From NCBI RefSeq assembly GCF_003955715.1, contig NZ_CP034463.1, positions 62,001 to 126,000 on the forward strand: 64,000 bases of DNA, given 5' to 3'. This DNA is from Streptomyces aquilus (GTDB lineage Bacteria > Actinomycetota > Actinomycetes > Streptomycetales > Streptomycetaceae). The translations under genes were made by a program, and so were the position numbers. This document shows positions 8,801 through 37,362 of the stretch, in pieces (position 1 is the first letter of the stretch; each line of letters starts with the position of its first letter). The notes under the pieces were generated by a model. It ran no database searches. It saw nothing but the letters and a program-made list of their open reading frames with translations, and had not been told where the DNA came from.

Positions 8801-8952
8801 TGCTCGGGAGTGAGCCGTGCGTGCAGCTCCCGTACAGACACCGCTGATTCATCGAGCCAGGAGCGCACCACCGCGACCAGCTGATTGATCTCGACGCACG
8901 AGCCCCGGGCCGGTCCCCACGGGCGCCCCGCTCGCTTCCTCTCGCCGGCCAC
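5815..8952 (-). CDS. Multi-domain GAF-PAS-GGDEF protein, probably catalytically impaired
   Basis: A 1045-residue signalling protein. Residues 1-110 form a helical N-terminal domain and about 120-275 a long coiled coil. Two GAF-like domains lie at about 395-555 and 560-700, a PAS domain at about 735-855, and a GGDEF domain at the C-terminus (RYGGDEF near residue 975). Active GGDEF proteins make cyclic di-GMP from GTP. Here the GGDEF loop is intact, but the segment that normally reads (V/I)DLDxFKxxND reads FLALRDFKAINTRFGHDAGD. The first metal-binding Asp and its partner are therefore lost. The domain also ends abruptly at ILRAARGFAS, about ten residues short of the usual helix. It is more likely a GTP or c-di-GMP binding sensor than an enzyme. 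No partner gene is in the same operon. Confidence 0.8.
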   Translation of the reverse strand: MAGERKRAGRPWGPARGSCVEINQLVAVVRSWLDESAVSVRELHARLTPEHFIAGAVPELRRLRDRLSGESLAWDLVEAVADVCFPHEQAGLSRQRLEEARMLWDRAGTNPTAITEAQELVPARELLEAKDRIIEVLQEMQRARQAYEAGEHGRQQALSIATLLFVMLGQAQAKVAELRRRLDALESVAVHLPGGQGVVELLFRAQRQETELSEQLIRAERERDIAQQVADHAARRIDELEAELAQLRHRMGEDGPSRTQEPAPLLSRPDLHALSPDDAALNDVDRALEKARAVLDQEHEAVQQAADEVGYWSSSSPPASPAQASVLAPGHIRQNPGGQPFGSSGTTPNNPPTSQDTTFPALESPRPPAADPQGDISEAARRITWGRDPEDIVTRLRRAAVPTVADAVMVYLRDPLPVDDEEHAGPLVLRLQQVQPLHAGGGAAQCEVRPDSALFEVLNGALPVTTDSPVGDTALLELLGEGHKAPGGGHTVLVPLHGRRRIIGTAVLLRHPTEQPFQDADLSVAAEFATGSALAIDKIHSLRAAVQGLHLAHNLADTLKVVAHGVVAGLGYELASVNLVRPDGDLVVASFAGNPAAEAQITGRVGSRDSWERRLSMGENWGDLVFIPHTEGWVLDDDDVPQWYTDGPVPRFEDEWHPSDRLFAPMYTRSAPGAAHRELLGVISVDQPLTRRRPRPDERRDLEEYAFQAAIAISNARLRSNMQRALVRLEREQQALRASEESFRQAFEYGPNGMAIAEMDGGRHGSILRTNDALCRMLGRPASAMRRYSFSDFVHPEDMAILLRTSAEGGRAELRLGRRDGTYLWVSLRNSVVADAADGPRFLLIHVEEIEDRKRRELRLAHRASHDSLTGLPNSAELHARIDARLCAYRGHGSDTAAERVDDPHLRHADQAASPHIHVLAPVGDDNTHGLAVVFLALRDFKAINTRFGHDAGDRVLVEVARRLSKAVRDGDTVARYGGDEFVVLADGFGPADAHSAAVWMQSQIHLPIPLGNQTVQMRAGVGIAWAQCGTAPSDILRAARGFAS

Positions 8953-9087
8953 TCGTTCTCCCCCATGGTTTGTTCGCCGGACAACCCTCTGTTGTTACCG
9001 GAGAATCATCCAACCGCCCCACCTGCGATTCCGCGCAGGGATCGTCGTAATTCGTCATCGACACCACACGACCCAGGCGGTGCCTTC

Positions 9088-9288
9088 ATGAAACACACCC
9101 TCCCGGCGTTCCTGCTCCTCGCGCTGGCGGTGGCCGTCCTCTTCTCCGTCGTCGCTGCGGCGATCGCCTTCGCCCTCGCCCGCTGGGAGGGAGCCGCCGT
9201 GCCGTCGGCCCTGTCCCGCTGCGGCATCGCGTTCGCCGCCAGCCTCACCCTGTGCCTCGCCATCTTCTCGGCGCTGGACCGGACGTGA
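9088..9288 (+). CDS. Two-span small membrane protein
   Basis: A 66-residue protein from ATG 9088 with two hydrophobic helices (about 6-31 and 42-62) joined by a short loop ARWEGAAVPSALSRCG. It is clearly related to the small protein at 34126-34335, whose loop reads ARLDGATYASALLRG. Each copy sits close to a candidate defence gene, here SIR2. Function unknown. Confidence 0.65.
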   Translation: MKHTLPAFLLLALAVAVLFSVVAAAIAFALARWEGAAVPSALSRCGIAFAASLTLCLAIFSALDRT

Positions 9289-9297
9289 CCGGAGCGG

Positions 9298-9665
9298 TCA
9301 AGGGAGTTCGTCGTTGTCTCTGACCCTTGTAGTGGCACTCGCCGGCCTGCCGGGGAGCAGCCGGGTCATGGTCTCGGCGGCGCGTACGGCAGCGTCCCCA
9401 CAGCAGTTGTCGAACAGGACGTGGACGCGCTCGGCCCGCTCGGCGAGGGCGTGCAGCCGTGGCAGCACCATTCGGTGAGCTCGTCCCGGTCGTACGAGTA
9501 CCGGAACCGCTCCTCCTTGTTCCCGGGCCTCCAGGACTCGCTGCGCCCGTGGAACCGTACGACGGAGAGCCGGGAGGACGGGAGTGCCGGGTTCATGTCG
9601 ACGGTGGCGGCGGCCATGCCGTACCGCGCGAGCAGCGTGCACGTGGCCGACACCAGCTCGCTCAT
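9298..9665 (-). pseudogene. DUF72 (YecE-like) C-terminal fragment, frameshifted
   Basis: Minus-strand sequence from about 9665 reads PALPSSRLSVVRFHGRSESW followed by FRYSYDRDELTEW. It then needs a frame change near 9470 to continue as LPRLHALAERAERVHVLFDN and a helix ending AAETMTRLLPG. This arrangement (RFHGR, RYxYxxxEL, then VLFDNxxGDxAVxxA) is typical of the C-terminal third of DUF72 TIM-barrel proteins. The N-terminal two thirds are missing, so this is a remnant. Confidence 0.6.
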
Positions 9666-9858
9666 CCGCGCATCGTAGTGCGGGTATTGGCCGGGATGTC
9701 CGGCTCATCGGCGGCTACTGACTCCACAGCGTCCGACGATCCAGAAGGTCCCTTTCTCTCCGATTCCCATTCTCGTCAAACTGACGGTAAGATTGGATGC
9801 GGAGAGGCCGCCCCGTGCGACCGACACCCGGTCATGCCGTCGCACCCGGAGGCCAGTT

Positions 9859-24029: not shown

Positions 24030-25072
24030 GATCCCCTCCCGTTAGCGATCTCGCGGGTTTCCTCGTTCGTCCACATCCCTTCGAATTGGCTTCGAAAGCG
24101 TGCGTACCACAACGCGTCGGTCGCCCGTGCCACGAGGAAGCCCGGACGCCAGGACGATGGCTGTCGCCACGACCAGAACCAGATGTAGACGTGCGCCCGC
24201 TCGTCGTCCGCGTCGAAGAAGTACGCCGTGAAGGGCGGCATGATGTCGTAGGCGCGCAGCTGCAGGCTGTCGGCCGGGGCCGCTGCCGCTGCTCTGATCG
24301 ATGTCAGGGTGGCGATGGCGCTGCGGTGTTGATGGCGGACGTCTTCGGCCGATGCCTTGGGCGTGGAGCTGCGGCGGTTTGCGTCAAGGACCGCTTGGCC
24401 CTCCGGATCCTGCATGAGGACGCGGACCTGGCCGCCCGACCTGAGGATGCGGCCGATCTCGTCGGAGTAGGTGACAGCCATCCGGTTGTGGCCGAAGCCG
24501 CACATGTCGACGGTGCGGGCATGTTTCCAGGACGCCGCGAACCGAGGGCTGTTGTGCACGTAGTTTTCGATGAACACGCCACCGGCCGTGGTCGGTGCAT
24601 GTCCGTTCGGCTGGGCCGGTTCGATCACCGTGTCGAAATCGGACGGCGGCACCGGCTCGCTCTCGGCAGCGGGGCGGGCCCGCATGAGCAGCTGCAACAG
24701 CGCGAGGTCGGCCTGGTGTCGTACGTTGCGCGAACTGCCGATCCACTCGTGCGCCAGCGCGAAGTCTTCGACTCGTTCGAGCCAGTTGAAGTCACCGAAT
24801 GCGCCGTCGATGTTGAAACTGAGCCTCAACAGCTCCCGCTCACGCGGCGGTGCCCTCTCGATGAGCTTCTTGAGGTTGTCCAGCCCCTGGGTGAGCTGGC
24901 TATCGGTGTCGTCTTCGATACACAGCACCCGGCGCTTGACGAACTCGGACAGGTAGTAAAGATCACCGGGGCTGGCGATGCCCCTGCCGTGGCGCAGACG
25001 TTGCAGGCTGTCGAAGTCGTCGCGCAGGCCCTGAGCCCTTGCCAGCGTCGCCACGGTGACCCTCATGAGCAT
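24026..25072 (-). CDS. Regulator-like protein with a PLD-type C-terminal fold
   Basis: A 348-residue protein. The N-terminal half is helical (LQRLRHGRGIASPGDLYYLS, then RAPPRERELLRLSFNIDG). The C-terminal half resembles the phospholipase-D-like fold of Streptomyces DUF5919-type proteins: GFGHNRMAVTYSDEIGRILR, VRVLMQDPEGQAVLDANRR and the late strand FFDADDERAHVYIWFWSW. No HKD catalytic pair is seen, so it may sense rather than cut. It is the first gene of the operon with the PhyH and HAD genes; tandem GGTGTCCA repeats lie upstream. Confidence 0.6.
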   Translation of the reverse strand: MLMRVTVATLARAQGLRDDFDSLQRLRHGRGIASPGDLYYLSEFVKRRVLCIEDDTDSQLTQGLDNLKKLIERAPPRERELLRLSFNIDGAFGDFNWLERVEDFALAHEWIGSSRNVRHQADLALLQLLMRARPAAESEPVPPSDFDTVIEPAQPNGHAPTTAGGVFIENYVHNSPRFAASWKHARTVDMCGFGHNRMAVTYSDEIGRILRSGGQVRVLMQDPEGQAVLDANRRSSTPKASAEDVRHQHRSAIATLTSIRAAAAAPADSLQLRAYDIMPPFTAYFFDADDERAHVYIWFWSWRQPSSWRPGFLVARATDALWYARFRSQFEGMWTNEETREIANGRGS

Positions 25073-25090
25073 ACGTTACGCCGCAGAGGC

Positions 25091-25108
25091 GGTGTCCACT
25101 GGTGTCCA
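25091..25108 (-). promoter_or_regulatory. Tandem 10-bp repeats upstream of the PLD-like/PhyH/HAD operon
   Basis: GGTGTCCA occurs at 25091-25098 and again at 25101-25108, exactly one helical turn apart and 19-36 bp before the operon start. This spacing suits binding of a regulator to one DNA face. No core promoter could be fixed with certainty. Confidence 0.35.
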
Positions 25109-25208
25109 GAGCGTTCCAATGCACGCCGTCTGAAGGGCTGTTGGCCCTTTTCGGGGCCGAACAGGATCTCCCTGTCACTGTCAGTTCAGCAGATGCGGAG
25201 ATCCCTCC

Positions 25209-25496
25209 ATGCTCCCAGCACCCCGCGGCCACCGGCTCGCGCGCATCCCCGAGCCTCAGCCCATCGTGGTCACGACGACTCCGTGCATCCCCGCCTCCGG
25301 CCGACCGTGCGGCTGCGGCGCGCCCCACTGCTGCGAGGGGGGCGCGGCCGGCCGCACCCGAGGCCGGCCGCAGCGCGCATCGCGCATGCCCCGCCGCCTG
25401 CTGCACGAGGCGCTCTGGGCGGCCGTAGCCGGCGCGGCGTACACGTGCGGTGCCACCGGCACGGGCACGGTTTTGTACTGGTTCATCCACCGTTAG
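25209..25496 (+). CDS. Small Cys-rich protein with C-terminal membrane helix
   Basis: 95 residues from ATG 25209, with GGAG about eight bases upstream. A Cys cluster (PCGCGAPHCCEGG) in the middle might bind metal. The C-terminus is a membrane helix (EALWAAVAGAAYTCGATGTG then TVLYWFI). The basic N-terminus suggests a cytoplasmic head. Function unknown; it could also be spurious. Confidence 0.45.
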   Translation: MLPAPRGHRLARIPEPQPIVVTTTPCIPASGRPCGCGAPHCCEGGAAGRTRGRPQRASRMPRRLLHEALWAAVAGAAYTCGATGTGTVLYWFIHR

Positions 25497-25936
25497 GGGA
25501 ACGGGGTGCGCCGGTGCCTGCAGTCCGCCGCCGCGATGTCCGGGCTGCAGGCACAGTCGAGGAGGGCGCGCACTCCGCGTATGAGCGCGGACTGGCCGAA
25601 CGCCAGCTTGGAAGACAGCAGTTGGTCATCCGATTGCGAGGACGGCGGTTCTTTCGTGACCGGCCGTCGTGTCGGCGACGCACCTTCGTCGAGCAGGTCG
25701 ACGGGCTGTAGCGGGCGGTAGGGACGCGGGCCGTGAGCTGACACCGCTGGGGCTCTGAATCCGTTGGCCACCACGGCAAGTCCGACGAGGGCGTTCGAGC
25801 CTACGCAGATCATGGTCCAGAGCTGCGGCTCGTTCACGGGGAACGGCAGATCCGTCAGGGGCCACTCGCGCTGGAGCAACGCCGTGCGGTGTCTTTGTGT
25901 TCGCCGATGCCGAAGGAAATCTGTACCGGGGTCATG
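25493..25936 (-). pseudogene. Small membrane-type hypothetical, frameshifted
   Basis: From an ATG near 25936 the minus strand reads MTPVQISFGIGEHKDTARR. After a one-base shift near 25880 it continues LLQREWPLTDLPFPVNEPQL, then WTMICVGSNALVGLAVVANG, and ends near 25493 with LLDCACSPDIAAADCRHRR. One hydrophobic segment is present. The good sequence on both sides of the shift argues for one broken gene. Confidence 0.3.
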
Positions 25937-26406
25937 ATCCCCAGTGTGCCGTCCGCGCTCGAGAAGACGCGGCGCCGTTGCGCTCAGACGGTGCTTTGCA
26001 CGGAGGTGTGCGGGCGGGCCGCGCGCTGGGCGCGCGGCCTCACCGCTGACCGGGCGCACCCCAAATGCGCTGCGGTCCGGGTTCCGTGCACGGCGTTGTC
26101 CGAGGTGCCCAGATCCTGCGACCAGGGTGTCCCAGGCTGGCCGCAGGAAGCAACTCGAAACCTGGACACGGGCGGGACAGCGTTGTTCTGCCTCGTGCCG
26201 ACTAGCCGGAGGAGGCCTTTGAACAGGGAGAACGCATCGGAGTCCTGTTCTGGACACAGTTGGGACAATGCCTTGAACTCTAGGTTCCGGGTGGTGTTGA
26301 GGGGGGCGGGTCCGGCAGGATCTGGGATGTGTGCAGCGGCGGGCTGGCCCCAAACCTCCCGTCGGCAGTGGCACACATGTCCGAGGTGCATCAAGGGAGT
26401 TCACGC
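25937..26406. other. 470 bp without a supported gene
   Basis: Both strands are open in places but with poor codon use and no recognised motif. A purine-rich site (AAGGGAG) at its right end serves the following small membrane gene, so its promoter is probably here. Confidence 0.4.
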
Positions 26407-26628
26407 ATGAGTAAGGCTCTGCTGTGTGTCGGGGACGGCGCTCCGGTGCCGCGTCACCTGTCCGATGTCGTGATGGTCGTTGCCGTGCTGATCGTGGTGG
26501 TCGGCACGCTGGGTTCGGCGGCGGCCTGGCAGGACGCGGCGCAGGTACTCGTCACCGAGACAGTGGCCGCGGTAGTGGCCGCGATGGTGGTGGCCGTGGT
26601 GAAGCCGTCGGCGCACGACCGCATGTGA
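26407..26628 (+). CDS. Two-span small membrane protein preceding the MORC-like gene
   Basis: 73 residues from ATG 26407, which has AGGGAG seven bases upstream. Two hydrophobic segments (VVMVVAVLIVVVGTLGSAAA and TVAAVVAAMVVAVVKP) flank a short Gln/Asp loop. It lies 15 bp upstream of the 789-residue HTH/GHKL gene on the same strand, so co-transcription is likely. It may be a membrane partner of that protein; this is inference. Confidence 0.6.
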   Translation: MSKALLCVGDGAPVPRHLSDVVMVVAVLIVVVGTLGSAAAWQDAAQVLVTETVAAVVAAMVVAVVKPSAHDRM

Positions 26629-26643
26629 CGGCTGGTTGATGTC

Positions 26644-29013
26644 ATGGCGGGGCGACGGGAGAAGGAGCTTGTTGCCCGGGTGCCGGAAATGGCGGAGGTG
26701 GCGCGCTGGCTGCGGCAGTCGCGCCACCTGTCGGGCCTCACGTACGAAGACCTCGTACAGGCTACGGGCTTCAGCAGGGGCAGACTCAACCGGGCAGCCC
26801 ACGGCTGGCGCTCCCCCTGGCCGGTGGTCGAGGCGTTCACCCGGGCCTGCGGCACGGACGTAGCCGAGGCCAGACAGCTCTGGCTGAAGGCGAAGGCCGC
26901 CCTTGAGGGGATCGACCAGGGCCCCGATGTGATCTCCATCGGGCAGGTGGGCACTTTCGAGGAATTGCGCGAAGCGATGAACCGCCTGCGCGCCCTGGCA
27001 GGTTCGCCGAGCCTGCGTGAGCTGGAAGATCGGGCTGGAAAGAGGCTGACGCGGAGCACCTTGAGCAATGTCCTGAGCGGAGCGGTGAATCCCCGCCGGA
27101 ACCTGGTGGTGATGTTCGCCGAGATCGTGGGGGTAGGACGCAGTGAGGCAGCAGCCTGGGCAGCTGCCTGGGAGCGTGCCGACACCAACTCTCGTGCCGC
27201 ACGGGCTCGTACGGCACGAGACCTCAAGGCCCCGGCGAAGCCGTTGATGTTGGTGCCTGCTCCGGCCGCGCTGGCCGCGTTGGCCGACATCCCGCTGGCC
27301 GAGTGGGCGGCTGTGGCCGAGTTGGTGGACGCCGTGATGAAAGGCAGCACAGGGGCGGGGCAGCACCCTGCGGTCACGGTCGGATTCCAGCACGATCCGG
27401 ACTCCCCCGGCCACGAGACGATCACCGTCTCGTGCCGGCACACCGGTATGGACCGCGACACCATCAGCAAGGCTTTCCTGGCAAGTTGGACCGGCGGGAC
27501 GCAGGACCAGGACATCTTCGGCCTGGGCTTTGTCGTGGCGTGTCTGCAGCTGGGTGCGCACATCACGCTGCGCACCGCCCGGGCAGGCGATACGGCATGG
27601 ACCGTCCTCACCTTCGATCTGGCCTCCCTTACCGCCGGCTCCCCCTGGCACGCGCTCATCGGCGCGGAACCCAAAGCAGCGGCGGAGGACCAGGGCACGT
27701 TCATCACCATCAAAGCCCTGCGCGACCCCTGGCCGCCGGGCAGGCAGAACCGTCTGCGGCATCAGCTGGGAGACATTTACAGCTACCTGCTGCGCAAGGA
27801 GCAGGTACAGCTGACCGTGTCTGACCGGCCGGTGGCTCCCCGCATGCCGTGCATCTGGGGCGAGAACCGCGTTGTCCAGCGGCGCGAGGGCAACATCGCG
27901 GCCGTGCAGCGCCTCGACATCGTGCTGGCCACGCGGTATCGCTGCCGGAACTGCCGTCACACCAGTCCGCTTGGCTCACCGCATTGTCTGCAGTGCCAGG
28001 GAACACAGCTCGAGTTGACGGAACAACGCGTATGGGGCTGGCTGGGCGTTCAGCGCTATCTGCACGGCAGTGACTACGGCCTCGACTTCTATCGCAACGG
28101 CCGCAAGGTTCTCGTCAGGGACAAAGGCCTGTTCTTCTTCGAGGATGGCCCTGACCGCTCCATGGTGGAGTATCCGGTGGACGGGCCCGCGAAGGGCAGG
28201 CTGGTCGGTGAGATCCACTGTGACCACGTGCCCGTCAACTTCACCAAGACGGCATTCGATTACGACAGCCCGGAATGGCGTGCGGTCGTCCATGCCGTGC
28301 GCGGCCCCGGCCCTCTTGCTCCCCGGCACGCCCAGCGGTTGGGATACGCGCCCAACACCAGTCCCCTGGCCACCCTCTTCCGCGCCTTCCGCAGGAACGA
28401 TCCCGGTCTGCGGAACCTGATCCCCGGAGACGGAGCAAAGGCCCTGCACGATGAAGCCGCCGCATGGGCGGAGCGTTTCCGCAAAGGAGATCCTGCCTAT
28501 CAAAGCGACGACAAGTGGTACGAGGCCGCCCTCGCACACGACACGCCGCGTCCCGCCGTCGTTGCGGCCGCCGACGACCGTATCGATCTGGTGAGCCTGT
28601 CCCCCGAGGACTTGGACGATCTCGTCCACCGCCTCTGCATGGAGCTGCACGGCACTACTGAAGGCGGCCCCCGCGAGTTGATCGGACCAGGGCCAGCAAC
28701 CACTGTCTTGCGTGACAGGCCCACCACCGGCGAACGGTGGGTGCTTCAGTGCCGGCGCAACCGGCACGTCGTGCCTCTGGAGACGGTTCACGCCCTGGCC
28801 GGGCAGATGCTGGACGTGCAGGCCAGCCGGGGCATCCTGGTCACCACCAGCTGGTTCGGGGCAAGCAGCCATGCGTTCGCCCAACGCAGCGGCCGCATCG
28901 ATCTGGTGGACGGCCGAACTCTGAAAGCCCTTCTGCGTGAACACCTCGGCATCGAGGCCCGGCTCGGACTTGGCCGTCTTCCGCCTGAGTGGAATCCGGG
29001 AGACATTGCCTGA
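26644..29013 (+). CDS. HTH-MORC-like GHKL ATPase-zinc ribbon-Mrr-like fusion
   Basis: A 789-residue protein. HTH 1 is at residues 15-75 (LTYEDLVQATGFSRGRLNRA) and HTH 2 at about 105-175 (RSTLSNVLSGAVNPRRNLVV). A GHKL ATPase domain at about 215-400 resembles MORC/MutL-type domains, with an N-box at AVAELVDAVMKG (225-234), a G1 box at TGMDRDTISKAF (267-278) and a G2 box at FGLGFVVACLQLG (292-304). The Asn usually following ELVD is Ala230, and the Asp of the usual DxGxG is missing, so ATP use is uncertain. A zinc ribbon has C434-x2-C437 and C448-x2-C451. The C-terminus (about 690-770) resembles an Mrr/REase core (GERWVLQCRRNRHVVP, then RGILVTTSWFGASSHAFA, then IDLVDGRTL), with Arg704 where QxK nucleases have Lys. 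Prokaryotic MORC-like ATPases are known from restriction-linked gene neighbourhoods. A role in sensing and blocking foreign DNA is inferred. Confidence 0.75.
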   Translation: MAGRREKELVARVPEMAEVARWLRQSRHLSGLTYEDLVQATGFSRGRLNRAAHGWRSPWPVVEAFTRACGTDVAEARQLWLKAKAALEGIDQGPDVISIGQVGTFEELREAMNRLRALAGSPSLRELEDRAGKRLTRSTLSNVLSGAVNPRRNLVVMFAEIVGVGRSEAAAWAAAWERADTNSRAARARTARDLKAPAKPLMLVPAPAALAALADIPLAEWAAVAELVDAVMKGSTGAGQHPAVTVGFQHDPDSPGHETITVSCRHTGMDRDTISKAFLASWTGGTQDQDIFGLGFVVACLQLGAHITLRTARAGDTAWTVLTFDLASLTAGSPWHALIGAEPKAAAEDQGTFITIKALRDPWPPGRQNRLRHQLGDIYSYLLRKEQVQLTVSDRPVAPRMPCIWGENRVVQRREGNIAAVQRLDIVLATRYRCRNCRHTSPLGSPHCLQCQGTQLELTEQRVWGWLGVQRYLHGSDYGLDFYRNGRKVLVRDKGLFFFEDGPDRSMVEYPVDGPAKGRLVGEIHCDHVPVNFTKTAFDYDSPEWRAVVHAVRGPGPLAPRHAQRLGYAPNTSPLATLFRAFRRNDPGLRNLIPGDGAKALHDEAAAWAERFRKGDPAYQSDDKWYEAALAHDTPRPAVVAAADDRIDLVSLSPEDLDDLVHRLCMELHGTTEGGPRELIGPGPATTVLRDRPTTGERWVLQCRRNRHVVPLETVHALAGQMLDVQASRGILVTTSWFGASSHAFAQRSGRIDLVDGRTLKALLREHLGIEARLGLGRLPPEWNPGDIA

Positions 29014-29026
29014 GCATCCCGGCTCT

Positions 29027-29052
29027 CGCTGCCAGCCGTACGGCTGGCAGCG
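29027..29052 (+). terminator. Perfect palindrome after the MORC-like gene
   Basis: CGCTGCCAGCCGT and its exact complement form a 26-bp palindrome 14 bp after the stop codon. It likely ends transcription of the MORC-like gene. 29053-29349 shows no supported gene. Confidence 0.65.
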
Positions 29053-29349
29053 TCGTTCGCGAAGGCCATCGCTGCTTCGGCTGTGCCTGTCCCTGGTCGA
29101 CTGAACCAGTCGCGGAGCGCGCCGCGCGCGGGCGCTGTCGTGCCGCGATCGGAAATAACCCGAATCTGCCTGCCTGTTCGCTACTCGGGGGCTAAAGTCG
29201 CGTTTCAGGCCCGGGTCGCCGCTCGTAGCGATGGCACGAGCTGCAACAGACTTCCACGCTGTCCGGGGATGCGGTCGTACCGTGCCCACCAGCAGCTTTC
29301 TTCTCACTGCGGCGGGCTTCGGCTTGCCGCGCATCGTTGGAGCTCCTCC

Positions 29350-30783
29350 ATGACAGCCGTCCAGGCCACCCCATCTGCGCTGCCCCGCGACTTCTTCTGC
29401 GAGCACTCCGCCAGCAAAAGCCGCGTTCTCGTTCTGCTGGCACACCCTGACGGGCCCTCCAGCCTGCAGGCCGTCATGACCTGCAAGGATGCGCTCGTGG
29501 CCCAGCATGCCGCGCTCCTCCTCTCCCTCGCTGCCCGCAACGGGATCCTCACCGCGCCGCAGCAGAACACGGCGGGCAAACTGCTCACTGTGCTGCCGGA
29601 TGCTCCTGCTGCCTCCTTCCGTCAAGCTCTCGACCAGGCACGCGCGGGGGTGTGGCCCGCCGGCTCGCCGGGGTTCACCTGGCCTTCCGACGACCCGTTC
29701 GACTGGGTGCAGGAGAGCGGCACGGAAGAGGCACTTCCCGTTTCCGCTATCCGCACCCCGAGGGACGCTCGGCTCGCCGACCTGCCCGGTCCGGTGATTC
29801 GCGTGGTCCAGTTGCGCGAGTTCCACGTCTACGACCAGGCCAAGGCACTCACGGCAGCGGCCGCCAGCGGCTGGGAGCCTGCGCCGCAGGAGGAGCTCAC
29901 CCAGGAGGATCCGCACGACCTGACCGGCGCTGTCATGTTCGCTGCCGAGACCACGGGTGACCTGCCGGGCGCGGACTGCCTGAACGACACGCAGGAAGGT
30001 CAACTGCTGCTGTCTGCTCAGGGAGACGAGGTCGCCGACTGGTCGGCTGAGCCGGTCCGCGTCGATTTCGGCTCGGGCTGGCGCCTGCACCGGACCAATC
30101 GCTCCGGCACCGCCTCGAGCACGGGCGCTGTGCCCGAGAGCGACCAGGAGCAGCCGGACTTCGCCGCTCTCTTCGCGCTGCCCGCGGCGTGCGACTGCGA
30201 GGAGGAGGACTGCCGCAAGTGCGACTGGACGCTCACGCCGCGCACGGCCGAGCTGCTGTACAGCGCGCTGGTCGAGCTTGCTGAGTCGGCTTACGACGAT
30301 GCCGCCGAGTTGGGTGATCGTCCCGTCATCAAGGACGATGACGGTGCCTGGGGCTTCTTCTCCCGTCTTCCGCAGGTGACCTGGCGCCAGAACGCGCAGT
30401 GGCGGCGCGGCCTGGCCCGGGCCTGCGACGATCTGGCAGGCGACCTCGCGAGCGGCAGATGGCCCCGGCCCGTCTGCGCGGCGGAGGAGATGGTCTTGCA
30501 TCTCGCCCTCGACGATGCCCTCGAGCATCTGGAAGCCGGTGACGGCAGTCCGCATGCGGCACTGCCCACGCACCGCGACGACTATGACTTCGACGCCTGC
30601 TCGGATTTCTTCTTCCAGGACCACGATGTGCTGTGGCTGTACGACAGCAAGTACAGCGAAGACGCCGGAGAAGCCGAGGGCAGGGAGCCTGTCGGCGTCC
30701 CGCCCGCCTTGCACCCGGACAACTGGTTCGAAGACTTCCTCAACGTCCCTGCGCGCTCCCCAGAGCGCGGATACCGCCGCTGA
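29350..30783 (+). CDS. Large acidic hypothetical protein
   Basis: 477 residues from ATG 29350. The protein is acidic and has a Cys cluster CDCEEEDCRKCDW in its second half, a possible metal site. Helical stretches include RTAELLYSALVELAESAYDD and WRRGLARACDDLAGDLASGR. The N-terminal part (LVAQHAALLLSLAARNGILT) looks like a small helical domain. I recognise the type as a Streptomyces hypothetical but give no function. It follows the MORC-like gene on the same strand, separated by a terminator-like palindrome. Confidence 0.7.
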   Translation: MTAVQATPSALPRDFFCEHSASKSRVLVLLAHPDGPSSLQAVMTCKDALVAQHAALLLSLAARNGILTAPQQNTAGKLLTVLPDAPAASFRQALDQARAGVWPAGSPGFTWPSDDPFDWVQESGTEEALPVSAIRTPRDARLADLPGPVIRVVQLREFHVYDQAKALTAAAASGWEPAPQEELTQEDPHDLTGAVMFAAETTGDLPGADCLNDTQEGQLLLSAQGDEVADWSAEPVRVDFGSGWRLHRTNRSGTASSTGAVPESDQEQPDFAALFALPAACDCEEEDCRKCDWTLTPRTAELLYSALVELAESAYDDAAELGDRPVIKDDDGAWGFFSRLPQVTWRQNAQWRRGLARACDDLAGDLASGRWPRPVCAAEEMVLHLALDDALEHLEAGDGSPHAALPTHRDDYDFDACSDFFFQDHDVLWLYDSKYSEDAGEAEGREPVGVPPALHPDNWFEDFLNVPARSPERGYRR

Positions 30784-30887
30784 ACCGCAGGCACGGCTCT
30801 TGGCATCAGCCGATGTCGTGAACCCTTCGCCTTCTGCACTCACATCGCCACGGGCTGGCGCCCGGACCTGCAACAGAGAGCACCTGG

Positions 30888-31217
30888 ATGAACGTGAGCA
30901 CGCAGCCCGTATGGGCTGAAGAGAGATACGAGCGCAACAAGGTCCGCCAGCTGCTGGTCCCCGGCGGCACACTACAGGCCACCGACGAGGCCGGGGCGCT
31001 ACAAGTTTCCAACGTCTACGGCAGCTGGCCCGCGGTACGCACGCCAGCGGAAGCGGCCGACGGGCTGACCGCCGTGCTGCCCGGCTCTTCCGGCCAGGAG
31101 GTGCACTGGCAGGGCAGCCGCATGGCGCACCCGCCGCAGGCGGTGGTGGAGTCGTATCGGGATGCCATCGGCTTTGGGTGCGGATCCTTTGAAGTGACCG
31201 TCGGGATCAAGCGGTGA
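30888..31217 (+). CDS. Hypothetical protein abutting an ISKra4 element
   Basis: 109 residues from ATG 30888, just after a weak purine site. The N-terminus NVSTQPVWAEERYERNKVRQ is followed by a mixed beta region. The last 7 residues (VTVGIKR) lie inside the ISKra4 inverted repeat, so the original C-terminus was probably replaced by the insertion. Function unknown. Confidence 0.45.
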   Translation: MNVSTQPVWAEERYERNKVRQLLVPGGTLQATDEAGALQVSNVYGSWPAVRTPAEAADGLTAVLPGSSGQEVHWQGSRMAHPPQAVVESYRDAIGFGCGSFEVTVGIKR

Positions 31218-32819
31218 GGCCGTAGTTCTGCGGGTCGGGGCTGGGGTAGAGGCGTTGATGTTCACGCACCGCGTGGTAGCGCCAGTAGTCCTCGAAGTCG
31301 CCGTTCGTGATCAGTGCGCGGAGTTGGAGGACGGCTTCGGCGCCGTCGAGTCCCCAGCGGGCGCCGGTGATGTCAAGGCGGTCGGCGATGAGGTGGCGGC
31401 AGGCGCCTTCGACGGCGCCGGTGGCGATTGGCCAGCCAGCCGTGAGGGCGGTGTCGTAGTGGAGCTGGTCGAGGTGACCGGTGAGATAGCGAGCGCAGGT
31501 GGTGACGGCGTCGCAGCGGGTTGCGGGAAGCTGTTCTGCTGCGGCCTGGGCGGTCATCTCGGTGGCGGCGCGGTCGGCGTGTCCGGCGAGGATCGCGGTG
31601 AGTTTGTCTGCGGCCCAGGTCTCGGCCTCGCGGCTGCCGACCGGATGGAAGGCATGCGCGTCCGTCCACGTGTACTCGGCGACGTGCACGAAGTCGAGCA
31701 GGATATTCAGGTGAATGCCGCGGCGGTCGGCTTCGGCCTGGATCAGGTCGAGTTGGTGGCGGGCGCCGTCGACGAGGACGAGCCAGTCCCGCAGATGCCG
31801 GGGGTCGCGGGCCTCGGCCTGGTCGAAGGCGTCGGCGACGACCAGTTCTGGAGAGTGCATCACCGAGGCGGTGCACCATTTGCGCTCCGCTTTCGGGCCC
31901 TGTCGTGGCGGCCGGGTTTCGCTTCGGCCACCGGGCGGGTGGACGATATCGTGCGGCCGACGTGGGGCCGGAACGACATCGAAGACGCAGGCCACCGTCG
32001 CCATGCGTTTGCGGTTGGGCTTCTCGCCCGGGGCCAGGCGTCCGCGTCGCCCGGCCGCCGCGCTCTTGGCCGCGGCTCGGCGGGTGGCTTCGCGCAGGGC
32101 TTCGGGGCGCATCACCACGCCCTTGCCGTCGATCTCGATGACCAGCGGCATCTCGCGGGTGCACGGGGTGGGGATCTTCGCCGTGTAGTAGGCGGCGATG
32201 TCGACCGCGGAGGCGACCACCAGTTCTTTGAGGCGGCGCTTGCCCAGCACCTTCCCACATCGTCGCTCGATTGCAGCGGCAGCCTGGTCGAACGAGCCTC
32301 TCACGGCTTCCAGGACCGCGAGCCGGGCAAGGCCGCGTGAGTGCCGGCCCGCGGGCAGCGACAGCTTCTCGTCTGCTGGGTGCACGTTGGCAACGCCTCG
32401 GCCACGATGGGCGATCCGGGTCACCCGAACTGGCCCGAACACGCACGTCAGTAGGCGGCGGTGACCCATCTCTCGCCAGGTTCGAGGCTGTCCTTCCGGA
32501 CCGAGTACCAGGGGCTGCCCTCGGTCCGCTCGCATCGTGTCCTCCTCCTTCCTGGCTCGCTGATCGAGGTGGTTCTGCATCAAATGCCGCAGCAGTTCGC
32601 GCCCTAACTCTTCGAGCTGGGCTTCGAGTTCGTCGTGAGACAAGTCTGCTGCCGGGCCGTCGGCCAGCGTCGAGATGAGGCGTTCGAAGGCATCACGGGA
32701 GGCGGAGTATGGATCAGGCTCGGGTAAGGCATCGTACGGTTCCATCGAGGGCTCTTCTTCGGGAGTGATTCGTTTTGGTTGGCACCTACGAATCTACGGA
32801 GAAGAGCCCCTTGGTCACT
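31193..32819 (-). mobile_element. ISKra4-family insertion sequence, about 1.63 kb
   Basis: Short imperfect inverted repeats (AGTGACCNNNGGGNTC read inward) start at 31193 and end at 32819. They enclose a single transposase gene. No target duplication is seen. The left end overlaps the 3' end of a hypothetical gene. The right end contains the stop codon of a coiled-coil/winged-helix gene. Confidence 0.6.
31207..32745 (-). CDS. ISKra4-family transposase
   Basis: A 512-residue transposase. The N-terminus is helical with an RELLRHLMQNHLDQRA segment. Family signatures follow: YYTAKIPTPCTREMPLVIEI, then DGKGVVMRPEALREATRRA; the middle WLVLVDGARHQLDLIQAE and ILLDFVHVAEYTWTDAHAF; and the C-terminal GAVEGACRHLIADRLDITGA and WGLDGAEAVLQLRAL. 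These match the DDE-type ISKra4 family seen often in Streptomyces. The frame is intact. Confidence 0.88.
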   Translation of the reverse strand: MEPYDALPEPDPYSASRDAFERLISTLADGPAADLSHDELEAQLEELGRELLRHLMQNHLDQRARKEEDTMRADRGQPLVLGPEGQPRTWREMGHRRLLTCVFGPVRVTRIAHRGRGVANVHPADEKLSLPAGRHSRGLARLAVLEAVRGSFDQAAAAIERRCGKVLGKRRLKELVVASAVDIAAYYTAKIPTPCTREMPLVIEIDGKGVVMRPEALREATRRAAAKSAAAGRRGRLAPGEKPNRKRMATVACVFDVVPAPRRPHDIVHPPGGRSETRPPRQGPKAERKWCTASVMHSPELVVADAFDQAEARDPRHLRDWLVLVDGARHQLDLIQAEADRRGIHLNILLDFVHVAEYTWTDAHAFHPVGSREAETWAADKLTAILAGHADRAATEMTAQAAAEQLPATRCDAVTTCARYLTGHLDQLHYDTALTAGWPIATGAVEGACRHLIADRLDITGARWGLDGAEAVLQLRALITNGDFEDYWRYHAVREHQRLYPSPDPQNYGLTA

Positions 32820-33342
32820 GCGAGTTGCTGCGGTCTCGCCCCGGGCCTTGCCGGGCGAGGGTGAACTGTCCCGGCGTGTTCTCGTCCAGCCAGCCTCGTT
32901 CCACCAGCCGCTTCAGCTTTTCCCGGGTGCCCTCGATCTTCCCGGTCGTCGTCGGCAGACCGATCCGCGGCACGATCTGCTTGGCCTGCAGCGGTCCTGG
33001 CGCGTCAGCGATGATCTCCACGATGTCCCGGTAGACATCCGGTAATACCGCCACCACCAGGCCCTCCCGCCAAGGCGGCACCATCATCACCCCGACGCCG
33101 TGAGGCACCGACGTCTCGTCCGGCGCCGGAGCATCCCCCGCCGCAAGGTGCGGTCCGGCCTGAGCGGCCGACAGTTCCGCCAGCACCTGCGCGACGGTCT
33201 CCCGCGTGATCTCGAGCCGCGAAAGATCCTCCCGAGCCGCCTCCAGCCGGATGGCCAACTCGGCTGCCTCAGCTTGGAGTGCCTCCACGCGCCGCCGAGC
33301 TGCGGCCTCTCGAGCCTGAAGCTCTTCCGGCAAAGACACCAT
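32815..33342 (-). CDS. Coiled-coil/winged-helix companion of the ISKra4 element
   Basis: The start is ATG 33342 (MVSLPEELQAREAAARRRVE), with GGAGG upstream; this gives 175 residues. A coiled coil (ELAIRLEAAREDLSRLEITR) leads into a winged-helix part (VYRDIVEIIADAPGPLQAKQ, then GTREKLKRLVERGWLDENTP). It shares RLxITRET and the REKLKRLVxRGxL pattern with the protein at 13114-13530. Its TGA stop is formed inside the IS end, 70 bp before the transposase start. It is likely a DNA-binding partner of mobile elements. Confidence 0.6.
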   Translation of the reverse strand: MVSLPEELQAREAAARRRVEALQAEAAELAIRLEAAREDLSRLEITRETVAQVLAELSAAQAGPHLAAGDAPAPDETSVPHGVGVMMVPPWREGLVVAVLPDVYRDIVEIIADAPGPLQAKQIVPRIGLPTTTGKIEGTREKLKRLVERGWLDENTPGQFTLARQGPGRDRSNSQ

Positions 33343-34458: not shown

Positions 34459-37362
34459 ATGGGGGAAGTACACGCGGATCCGTTGGCGGAGCTCGCGCTG
34501 CAGCTGCGCTCCCTCAGGGCTCAGCGGGGTTTACAGATGGGCGGGTTGCAGCAGAGGACCGGGCTGGGTCGGACGACGGTCAGCCAGGCACTGAACGGCC
34601 AAGTGGTGCCCTCCGAGGCCACGCTGGTGGCCTTGGCGAAGGCCCTGGGTGCTGATGTGGACTCTATGCTGGCCCTGCGCGAAGCCGCAGCGCGCCAGCC
34701 GAATGTCTCGCCAGTAAGAATGGTGCGCAGGCGGGTACGGCCGAAGGTGGAGGCGCCCTTTCAGAAGCGGTATCTCAACTACGTGGCAGAACGGCATTCC
34801 CAGCTGACCGTCGTAGGGCTGGATTTGAGTCGACCGGAACGTGCGTGCTGGCCGCTGGACGCGGCGTACTTGAGCTTGGAACTGGCAGAGCGGTCAGAGG
34901 ACTGGCCTGCAGGCGATGAGGAAGCGGACCGGCCGACCGTCGTAGTGAAGCGTGCCGAGCACGCGCTGGCCAACTGCCGACGAGTTCTTCTGAGAGGGCT
35001 CGCCGGCAGTGGAAAGACGACACTGCTGCAGTGGTTGGCTGTCGCAACGGCGCGCGATGAGCTGCCGGAGGAACTGGCGGACTGGCGAGGGTGGATTCCG
35101 TTCGTCCTGCCGCTGCGGACGCTGGTGAGGCGTGGGCCTCTTCCGGAGCCGCACGACTTCCTGTCTGCGGTCGGCACCCCCCTGGCCGCCTCCCAGCCGG
35201 ATGGGTGGGCCGATGCCGTACTTGCCGGGGGCGAGGCACTCGTCCTGGTCGACGGCATCGACGAGGTTCCTCAAGAGCACCGGGGTGCTACGCGGGACTG
35301 GCTCGAGCGGCTCTTGGCGGCCTACAGGGACGCGCGCTTCGTGGTCACCACGCGCCCGTCCGCTGTGCCGGAAGGCTGGCTAGCTTCGTCGCACTTCACC
35401 GAACTGTCAGTACGGCCCATGAGTGCCGCCGACACCGGAGTCTTCGTACACCGGTGGCACACCGCAGCGCGACACAATGCGGCAACCGACGCCGAACGCT
35501 CACAATTGCATGATCTCGAAGCAGCGCTCCAGGTCACGGTGCGCGCTCAGCGTGACCTGGCGCAGCTCTCCAGCACGCCCCTGATGTGTGCGCTGATCTG
35601 CGCGCTGCACCGGGACCGCCGCGGTCATCTGCCCCACAGCCGCATGGAGTTGTACGAAGCAGCGCTGTCGATGCTGCTCGTACGCCGAGACCTTGAGCGC
35701 AGCATCGATGTACCGGAAGGCATTCAGCTCACCGAACACCAGAGCGTCCAGCTCCTGCAGCGTCTGGCCTACTGGCTCATCCGCAACCGCCAGACCGAGA
35801 TGGAACGGGCCACCGCGATGGCCCTGGTCGACGACGCGCTGCCCGCCATGCAGGCCGTGGCCGAGCAGGGCACTGCCGACCAGGTTCTGGCTCACCTGGT
35901 CGGCCGCAGCGGGCTCCTGCGCCAGCCCACCGCGGACACCATCGACTTCGTCCACCGCACCTTCCAGGACTACCTCGGGGCCAAAGCCGCCATCGAAGCC
36001 CACGACTTCCCCCTGTTGGTCAACAACGCCCACGACGACCAGTGGGAGGACGTCGTACGCATGGCCGTCGCCCACGCCCGCCCAGCCGAGAGCGCTGATC
36101 TCCTCCGCCGCCTCGTCAAACGCGGTGATGCCGACGGCGAACACCGGGGCAGACTCCACCTCCTGGCAGCCGCCAGTCTGCAGTACGCCACTGAAATCGA
36201 ACCCGAGGTCCGCAGGCTGGTCGAACAGCGAGCACGCCTTCTGATGCCTCCCCGCTCTTCTGAGGAAGCGGAGGAGCTTGCCGCGCTGGGTCCGGGCATC
36301 CTGGATCTGCTGCCCGGGCCCCAAGGCCTGAAGCAGGATGAAGTGAATGCGGTTTTCCGCACGTCTGCTGTTATCGGCGGTGACCAAGCATACGCCTTCC
36401 TTCAGCACTTCACACAAACATCGTCTCCTACCCCGGCAAACTACGAGCTAGTCGACGCCTGGGAGAAATTCAATGCAGACCAATATGCCCAGGACATCCT
36501 TTTCCGCTTCAAAGAAGGATTGCATCTGAGCGTACAGACTCAAGACCAGAGGAACGCCCTGCGATTCCTCAAACCTATCACCAACGTCGCCTTCAGGGGA
36601 GAATTCACCCAAGCCGAGATCACCGAGCACCTTTCTCCTGATCACACTCGGAAGATCGAGATCTACTCGGGTCAACTGCTCGAAGATTTGACATTCGTAC
36701 GCGATTTCCCCGCCCTAAAGGAACTCGCTCTCAGCAGCTGCACAAAACTCGGTCACCTCGAAGACCTTGAAGGGCTGCCACTACCCAACCTGAGACTGCT
36801 TCAACTCCCGGACTCTTTCTCATTCAACGCACTGGCCACCCTTCCCCACCTCACCGAACTCGCTCTCTACACACGCCTGCCATGGAATAGCCTGGGAGAG
36901 CTACCCGCACCAGCAGATCTCACCTCACTACGCCTCGCCGAATGGATCGGCGTACCCCTGACAGGCATCTCTAAATGGAATCAACTGCGGGAGCTAGTGA
37001 TCAACGCGGCACCTACGCCCGCGGAATGGCGAGAAATTTCCAGCCTGCCCCACCTATCAAGACTTAGCCTCGGACAATATGACCTCGCGCAGGCCACTCC
37101 CATAAATAGCGTCACTTACCTGCACCTTTCCCCTATCGACTCAGACACCCAGTTGGACCTGGTGCCGGATACCTTTCCCAATGTGAAAGAGATTTTCGTC
37201 AACTGTCGGTCATCCCTGCCCGACATCACCGACGTCACCCCCTTGAAAAAAATCAAAGATCTTACAATCTCCTTGAGTTACGCGAATTATGTCGTTGGCC
37301 GAGAGGAGTTCGGTCCAGAAGCGGTGCGTCTCTACCCACGACCCCGCACAGAAATCATCTGA
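34459..37362 (+). CDS. HTH-NACHT NTPase with LRR-like repeats (bacterial NLR-like)
   Basis: 967 residues from ATG 34459 (GGAG upstream). An XRE-type HTH lies at residues 10-70 (LQQRTGLGRTTVSQALNGQV). The NACHT ATPase has Walker A LLRGLAGSGKTTLLQWL (177-193), Walker B ALVLVDGIDEVPQEH (260-274) and a sensor-type VVTTRPSAVPEGW (295-307). A helical region continues to about 640 (TIDFVHRTFQDYLGAKAAIE). From about 740 to 930 short leucine-rich units repeat (LKELALSSCTKLGHLEDLEG, LPHLTELALYTRLP). NACHT proteins with an HTH or other effector form part of bacterial anti-phage systems related to animal NLRs. The last third has clearly more A/T and different codon use, suggesting a transferred or fast-evolving sensor region. 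Confidence 0.85.
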   Translation: MGEVHADPLAELALQLRSLRAQRGLQMGGLQQRTGLGRTTVSQALNGQVVPSEATLVALAKALGADVDSMLALREAAARQPNVSPVRMVRRRVRPKVEAPFQKRYLNYVAERHSQLTVVGLDLSRPERACWPLDAAYLSLELAERSEDWPAGDEEADRPTVVVKRAEHALANCRRVLLRGLAGSGKTTLLQWLAVATARDELPEELADWRGWIPFVLPLRTLVRRGPLPEPHDFLSAVGTPLAASQPDGWADAVLAGGEALVLVDGIDEVPQEHRGATRDWLERLLAAYRDARFVVTTRPSAVPEGWLASSHFTELSVRPMSAADTGVFVHRWHTAARHNAATDAERSQLHDLEAALQVTVRAQRDLAQLSSTPLMCALICALHRDRRGHLPHSRMELYEAALSMLLVRRDLERSIDVPEGIQLTEHQSVQLLQRLAYWLIRNRQTEMERATAMALVDDALPAMQAVAEQGTADQVLAHLVGRSGLLRQPTADTIDFVHRTFQDYLGAKAAIEAHDFPLLVNNAHDDQWEDVVRMAVAHARPAESADLLRRLVKRGDADGEHRGRLHLLAAASLQYATEIEPEVRRLVEQRARLLMPPRSSEEAEELAALGPGILDLLPGPQGLKQDEVNAVFRTSAVIGGDQAYAFLQHFTQTSSPTPANYELVDAWEKFNADQYAQDILFRFKEGLHLSVQTQDQRNALRFLKPITNVAFRGEFTQAEITEHLSPDHTRKIEIYSGQLLEDLTFVRDFPALKELALSSCTKLGHLEDLEGLPLPNLRLLQLPDSFSFNALATLPHLTELALYTRLPWNSLGELPAPADLTSLRLAEWIGVPLTGISKWNQLRELVINAAPTPAEWREISSLPHLSRLSLGQYDLAQATPINSVTYLHLSPIDSDTQLDLVPDTFPNVKEIFVNCRSSLPDITDVTPLKKIKDLTISLSYANYVVGREEFGPEAVRLYPRPRTEII

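Follow-up and report, generated by a model that had tools for sequence, protein, structure and literature searches.

RexA-RexB of phage lambda combines a DNA-binding sensor with a membrane protein. MORC GHKL proteins are known from restriction-modification loci, as described in the parts of Iyer, Abhiman and Aravind (2008, PMC2292703) considered here. For multicellular prokaryotes, the sections of Kaur et al. (2020, PMC7159879) used here describe conflict systems whose modules are typically acquired inactive, and discuss decoys. Here we analyse a locus of Streptomyces aquilus within a window of 64,000 nt, i.e. the whole stretch of DNA under study (bases 62001-126000 of the 10.39-Mb single-contig genome). 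A gene for a small membrane protein of 73 aa (26407..26628, + strand) is followed on the same strand, after 15 nt, by a gene for a 789-aa protein (26644..29013, +) with two helix-turn-helix (HTH) domains, a GHKL/S5 module, a zinc ribbon and an Mrr-like domain.

Relatives sharing this architecture have lost the usual active-site residues of both enzymatic folds, with signs of selection on the folds, and small membrane genes are linked to double-HTH genes with exchangeable tails. Tentatively, and at somewhat less than even confidence, we read the pair as a two-gene sensor cassette in which a dead restriction enzyme would serve as input and the membrane peptide would stop the infected cell. A literature search found no description of the cassette or of the fusion among the titles and abstract openings listed; it covered open-licence papers only and is hence no proof of novelty.

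Domain architecture of the 789-aa protein

Pfam detects HTH_31 in two stretches of the 789-aa protein, the best of them at residues 20-79 (HTH 1, 26701..26880, +), where the structural model shows helices of high confidence. HTH 2 at residues about 123-165 (27010..27138, +) is indicated by HTH_3 (123-165, E 0.01), the second HTH_31 stretch and helices of the model. HATPase_c was found at residues 223-326 with E 0.003, under the family cut-off, and Mrr_cat at residues 651-764 (28594..28935, +) with E 7.7e-15 and 55.5 bits, which passes the cut-off of 21. NA-iREase1, the Pfam family of NACHT-associated inactive restriction endonucleases, matches the Mrr region weakly (E 0.13, below cut-off). The zinc ribbon of the form CxxC-x10-CxxC (residues 434-451, 27943..27996, +) has its cysteines 434, 437, 448 and 451 invariant in 36/36 aligned proteins.

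The AlphaFold2 model has a mean confidence (pLDDT) of 73.8, with the Mrr part mostly at about 50 or below. Residues 204-586 (27253..28401, +) find their best fold match in MORC ATPases, with Hsp90 and Topo VI-B chains close behind. Judged by this model, a GHKL fold with an S5/transducer part is predicted to be present. An initial annotation of the window had staked its interpretation on a GHKL fold at residues 215-400, and this expectation held. The order it gave (two HTH, GHKL, CxxC zinc ribbon, C-terminal restriction endonuclease-like core) is borne out by Pfam, alignment and model, and the open reading frame (ORF) coordinates agree with its 73-residue membrane protein 15 bp upstream of the 789-residue chain.

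Twelve full-length homologues show 66-91% identity to the protein, and the named ones belong to Streptomyces and [Kitasatospora]. The start at 26644 is supported because homologues (P0005, P0007, P0008, P0009 and P0016) have the same MAGRRE.. N-terminus. Owing to the twelve homologues and a ratio of nonsynonymous to synonymous substitution rates (dN/dS) of 0.31 in one pair of loci, the chain is no chance product. PADLOC matched only the restriction endonuclease part of the 789-aa protein (mREase_IV, E 4e-20, residues 639-782; PDC-S02 weaker) and gave nothing convincing for the other three proteins of the locus; no known anti-phage system was recognised beyond the shared domain. Searched with the 789-aa protein, the phage collection gave no match and the plasmid collection 60 matching records, none across >80% of it. 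The scan of genome contigs returned a single distant GHKL locus only. A PDB sequence search with the protein family gave weak matches only, L40e zinc ribbons on top.

Loss of catalytic residues in the Mrr-fused proteins

We compared the 13 Mrr-fused proteins (P0002 and P0005-P0016) with 22 GHKL-only proteins, which were picked among the matches listed (120 of 2870) and are known as sequences alone, hence they are not labelled restriction-modification proteins here. The GHKL-only relatives carry the motifs AELxDN and DNGxGM, and the 789-aa protein reads AELVDAVMK and SCRHTGMD at the same places. The Asn of motif I is present in 0/13 Mrr-fused versus 22/22 GHKL-only proteins, and the Asp of motif II likewise in 0/13 versus 22/22. 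A Lys in the S5 part is found in 3/13 (the 789-aa protein of the window included) versus 22/22, and the first glycine of motif III is retained in 13/13 Mrr-fused proteins. The protein of genome G388 represents a 14th Mrr-fused case with the same GHKL-site residues missing.

The nearest Mrr domains are found in other proteins from the genus and have the sequence DDG[IV]DA...QAKR. At the catalytic Asp the 13 fused proteins have A (12) or T (1), the relatives D in 12/12. At the catalytic Lys they have R (12) or Q (1) and the relatives K in 12/12, whereby the 12 relatives were excised by a Q-A/V-K-R pattern, so that for these relatives the Asp count is independent and the Lys count is not. Both columns were identical across three alignment modes. 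An intact Mrr relative is encoded elsewhere in the same genome. Among HTH-GHKL proteins without Mrr domain, P0018 and L042 have intact ATP-site motifs; P0019-P0022, L006, L043 and L044 have lost the Asn and retained the Asp; and both are missing from P0017, whose C-terminus is short.

The window was compared with G388 by a simple dN/dS method, i.e. for one pair of loci. The value is 0.31 across 772 codons of the 789-aa gene, with minima in Mrr (0.18) and zinc ribbon/S5 (0.23); the GHKL part (0.48) and the segment following it (0.53) have the highest values. In this single pair the folds look maintained rather than decaying. A decaying pseudogene is ruled out by the 13 full-length open frames together with the dN/dS of the one pair.

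The initial annotation had assumed an ATPase linked to a nuclease. An ATP-driven nuclease of a defence system, with unusual residues replacing the canonical ones, would agree with the presence of both folds and with the motif III glycine kept throughout. However, the GHKL Asn and Asp and the Mrr Asp and Lys are lost together in 13/13 proteins, and constraint is weakest in the GHKL part and the segment that follows it. We hence consider an active enzyme hardly credible, and this part of the annotation is not supported.

A small hydrophobic ORF precedes double-HTH genes

The 73-aa ORF has two hydrophobic segments, with their best 19-residue windows starting at residues 21 and 47, and is called coding by a purpose-built codon model. 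It shares 75% identity with its G388 partner over 69 aligned codons with a dN/dS of 0.26. Neither Pfam nor NCBIfam matches the protein above their cut-offs, and PADLOC gives nothing at E < 0.05.

All HTH-GHKL loci with a 5' flank (6/6) carry a hydrophobic ORF of 49-73 aa, 4-15 nt ahead of the HTH gene. For a wider survey we counted ORFs of 35-150 aa whose end lies between -30 and +60 nt relative to the start, with a positive coding score and a best 19-residue hydropathy of at least 1.9; this rule combines hydropathy with a home-made coding score and is not a trained topology predictor. Such an ORF was found at 23/25 double-HTH loci, tails of quite different kinds included, and at 4/368 other genes of at least 200 aa. 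When 126 genomes of the genus were searched by profile (they overlap the earlier sample, so that the loci but not all genomes are new), 26 further double-HTH loci came up, and 19/25 of them have the ORF (L166, being without start codon under the rule, was left out). In the matched control, single-HTH relatives that resemble them at the N-terminus and have open frames 1247-1760 aa long, it was found in 0/36. A chance hydrophobic frame in GC-rich DNA is ruled out by both controls.

Pooled, the ORF occurs at 42/49 loci, with the weak second HTH match of L134 dropped from the count, or at 41/48 without L102, which was chosen for a small ORF resembling that of the window and is therefore biased toward linkage. 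Clustering at 50% identity results in 20 clusters, with the ORF in at least one member of 19 and in every member of 17; it also absorbs L134 and L142, whose small proteins are identical and which are maybe one locus seen twice. The spacing to the HTH gene is 2-16 nt in 41/42 cases, the remaining one being a 14-nt overlap. Independently, the NCBI annotation carries the small gene in 5/6 plasmid HTH loci. The conserved linkage that the initial annotation named as support for a system is found among HTH-GHKL and double-HTH loci at large. For the Mrr-fused proteins, flanks come from two full-length loci (window and G388) and the truncated G223 copy.

By eye, the small proteins follow a common plan of a hydrophobic stretch, a G-M/L-P-like turn and a second hydrophobic stretch, many with a hydrophilic start and often with a basic end. 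A profile of 34 other small proteins matches those of the window and G388 (E about 0.002). With the same profile, the small proteins of L006, L042, L043 and L044 gave no score above shuffled sequences, and for them our claim is hence limited to position and hydrophobicity and does not extend to homology.

Compact gene order with short gaps would also suit a toxin-antitoxin-like pair, with a toxic small hydrophobic protein, an HTH protein that acts as its repressor or binding partner, and incidental tails. Several copies on plasmids and HTH-only versions point the same way. Most toxin-antitoxin loci are antitoxin-first, however, and here the membrane gene comes first; moreover, purifying selection acts on the large tail, as far as one pair of loci tells. 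We regard such a pair as improbable.

C-terminal tails are exchangeable

Besides GHKL-zinc ribbon and GHKL-zinc ribbon-Mrr, several other tail types occur. Some proteins are bare double HTH (e.g. L111 and L113). CxxC...CxxC with a Pro-rich end is recognised by eye, at places without Pfam match, in L059, L110, L112, L115, L119, L120, L130 and L135. In L131 the tail is a C-terminal DndB half, found by Pfam with E 3.6e-43 and short of the DndB cut-off of NCBIfam, and L151 and L158 carry BTAD-NB-ARC, with frames cut by the locus end. The double-HTH-DndB fusion of L131 (3799-5185) belongs to an S. chartreusis plasmid and has a hydrophobic ORF of 50 aa ahead of it. Near-constant pairing and exchangeable tails suggest a core circuit, in which the DNA binder would communicate with the membrane peptide, with a changeable input.

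A membrane-tethered transcription regulator without defence role is a serious rival here. The small protein would hold the HTH protein and release it on a signal, and the targets would be plasmid, telomere-region or developmental genes. This is in line with several partners being bare double-HTH proteins, with two partners combining a BTAD transcription-activator domain and NB-ARC, and with L042-L044 lacking an obvious conserved third gene. Tails resembling DNA restriction or modification proteins (GHKL, Mrr, DndB), of which there are several, would be odd for a house regulator. Overall we find this explanation doubtful, albeit with a real chance of being right.

A sensor cassette with a dead restriction enzyme as putative input

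According to the sensor reading that we favour, the small two-helix membrane protein and the double-HTH DNA-binding protein would form one cassette, in which the HTH protein binds DNA and controls its membrane partner and the exchangeable C-terminal part acts as input. In the Mrr-fused clade this input would consist of the MORC-type GHKL/S5-zinc ribbon and Mrr parts, derived from restriction-modification relatives and kept as folds without the usual catalytic residues. The ligand may be DNA in an unusual state or modification or, if the input is a decoy, a phage protein attacking restriction enzymes. The signal would be relayed via the HTH part to the membrane protein, an anchor or effector, which might then halt the infected cell or hypha in a RexA-RexB-like manner. 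The sequence comparisons show the architecture, the active-site losses, signs of selection on the fold and the conserved linkage with exchangeable tails; DNA binding, contact of the two proteins, ligand, membrane action and defence are what we infer.

Several findings weigh against this reading. The catalytic loss is not a property of the whole cassette, since some HTH-GHKL relatives without Mrr (P0018 and L042) keep their ATP sites. The bare HTH versions come without an obvious input domain, and a cluster of five HTH proteins of 203-211 aa (5 loci) is without membrane gene. Among four extra double-HTH loci, two have the ORF under our rule and a third only with an alternative start codon. Finally, the comparisons support common descent for part of the small proteins, not for all.

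If the linkage has the meaning it suggests, the simple rule of a small membrane ORF immediately ahead of a double-HTH gene would pick out many Streptomyces loci of one class, and tail exchange would give a hint of the DNA-related signals that the cassettes read. With a restriction enzyme that is conserved although doubly dead, bacteria would provide a clear example of pseudo-enzymes retained as sensors or decoys. The sensor reading becomes rather unlikely when widened to widespread, undescribed two-gene immune cassettes of Streptomyces with DndB, zinc ribbon, BTAD-NB-ARC, MORC-type GHKL or dead GHKL plus dead Mrr as inputs, where the dead parts would be decoys or readers of phage anti-restriction and a membrane-hairpin peptide would execute an abortive response.

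Relatives in restriction-modification loci

We inspected 23 GHKL loci without HTH module, a count that leaves out L127-L129. A helicase gene and a ~200-aa gene follow in 22/23, including L008 with an insertion sequence (IS) element between the genes of the set. A Dcm gene is among the genes shown in 20/23, often plus a Vsr-like gene, with the names Vsr and Dcm taken from plasmid annotation. Actinobacteria carry the set of GHKL, helicase and ~200-aa genes repeatedly, and it is likewise present on Rhodococcus, Roseobacteraceae and Deinococcus plasmids; GHKL and helicase genes, mostly with Dcm/Vsr-like genes, are found in L045-L055, L103-L106, L108-L109, L005 and L007-L010. In the L046 set Pfam identifies HATPase_c, Mrr with superfamily 2 (SF2) helicase, and DNA_methylase, and its GHKL protein has no PADLOC match at E 0.1. 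The layout of the 23 loci matches the MORC restriction-modification loci in the considered parts of Iyer et al. (2008, PMC2292703). The window locus holds the remnant of another helicase only, and no member of the Dcm/Vsr cluster is among the genes shown.

In a tree of 41 GHKL regions the 17 HTH-fused ones form one group (support 96/97), next to 12 actinobacterial GHKL-only proteins. As the HTH-fused domains group together, the tree fits a single capture. L107, on a long branch and with a different N-terminus, neighbours the HTH-fused group (95/90) and is perhaps a second, independent fusion. It encodes a 1017-aa protein (6666-9719, - strand) with another N-terminus ahead of the GHKL-zinc ribbon module. 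On the Deinococcus plasmid pDrdI (L009, 14145-17281) the MORC-type set is soon followed by E2/UBC, Mov34 and SAVED genes, which we take to be CBASS-like.

Neighbouring genes and chromosomal setting

The initial annotation listed two unknown genes behind the 789-aa gene on the same strand. The first, an ORF of 477 aa (29350..30783, +), starts 336 nt past the 789-aa stop and was confirmed. The second, an ORF of 109 aa (30888..31217, +), is ruled out as a gene of its own: it represents the first ~96 codons of a truncated SF2 helicase gene, followed by DNA like annotated ISKra4 transposase genes. The helicase similarity stops at 31175, and annotated ISKra4 transposase features of two plasmids share 45-48 bases with the sequence from about 31173 onward. 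An ISKra4-like element (31173-32745) has its transposase gene, with a weak UPF0236 match, at 31207..32745 (-). A genome search found the helicase gene never beyond its first 97 codons, in both mirror copies of the locus.

Matches to the 477-aa protein occur in 38/392 genomes of the genus, many of them to the C-terminal ~190 residues only. These last ~190 residues recur in the genus, some in open frames of about 850-1130 aa. The model of the protein has a predicted template modelling score (pTM) of 0.46, with no PDB fold match at E <= 0.001. In G223, G196 and G227 the 477-aa gene is followed by a helicase gene of 1004-1057 codons with ResIII and Helicase_C matches and, by eye, a PD-(D/E)xK-like end; the G223 helicase diverges from that of G196 after about residue 969.

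A four-gene system of cassette, 477-aa protein and helicase, broken in the window by the cut helicase gene, would account for G223, where the HTH gene's 3' end is followed by the 477-aa and helicase genes in the same order (90% identical over 2745 bp). In addition, the [Kitasatospora] papulosa homologues of the HTH and 477-aa proteins are on contigs of equal length (467595), presumably one contig. However, G223 has open 477-aa and helicase frames next to an HTH gene reduced to about its last 200 residues; in G196 and G227 the pair occurs and the HTH gene is absent, and in G388 the 19 kb read contain neither of the two downstream genes. Six loci (L092-L097) with 477-aa homologues of 42-51% identity contain neither helicase nor HTH gene. 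With the HTH gene absent in 2/4 loci that have the pair or its remnant, the case of the initial annotation for the following genes as system parts is weak. We think a four-gene system quite improbable, and read the 477-aa and helicase genes, from their occurrence in these loci, as a neighbouring module rather than a fixed part of the cassette. In G223, DUF2398 and DUF2397 genes (L041, 3607-6536, -) adjoin the truncated HTH gene and are possibly further defence genes.

The 789-aa gene has a second copy at genome position 10302978-10305344 on the opposite strand, and mirror copies exist for the 73-aa and 477-aa genes as well. Since the encoded 789-aa protein is 100% identical and the copy sits at the mirror position of the chromosome, the locus probably lies inside a terminal inverted repeat. 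Rfam gave no match at gathering threshold for positions 25000-33000. A few kb downstream, at 34459-37362 of the window, a 967-aa HTH-NACHT protein (NACHT E 3e-26, weak leucine-rich repeat matches) is encoded, a second putative conflict gene close to the same chromosome end.

Comparison with known systems

RexA-RexB resembles the cassette as a working model only, i.e. in the combination of sensor and membrane protein. NA-iREase1 proteins are weakly matched, and the 789-aa protein is without NACHT. With Mrr restriction endonucleases of the genus it shares the Mrr_cat fold at about 43-45% identity to the nearest, whereas its clade is without the catalytic Asp and Lys.

The prokaryotic MORC/paraMORC proteins, as far as covered by the considered parts of PMC2292703, are like the 789-aa protein in the GHKL and S5 folds, and the nearest group in our tree is actinobacterial GHKL-only. 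These relatives sit in operons with SF2 helicase, Dcm and Vsr-like genes, whereas neither Dcm nor Vsr-like genes are seen beside the 789-aa gene. Compared with them, the 789-aa protein adds two HTH domains and an Mrr domain and loses ATP-site residues. The systems of Kaur et al. (2020, PMC7159879), in the sections used here, have no counterpart at this locus for their MoxR-vWA/VMAP genes, none of which we noticed, and a small membrane gene and a double HTH are found instead. The likeness lies in inactive enzyme versions with active cellular counterparts and in modular exchange, and by this analogy they appear, within those sections, to be the closest printed parallel we have seen.

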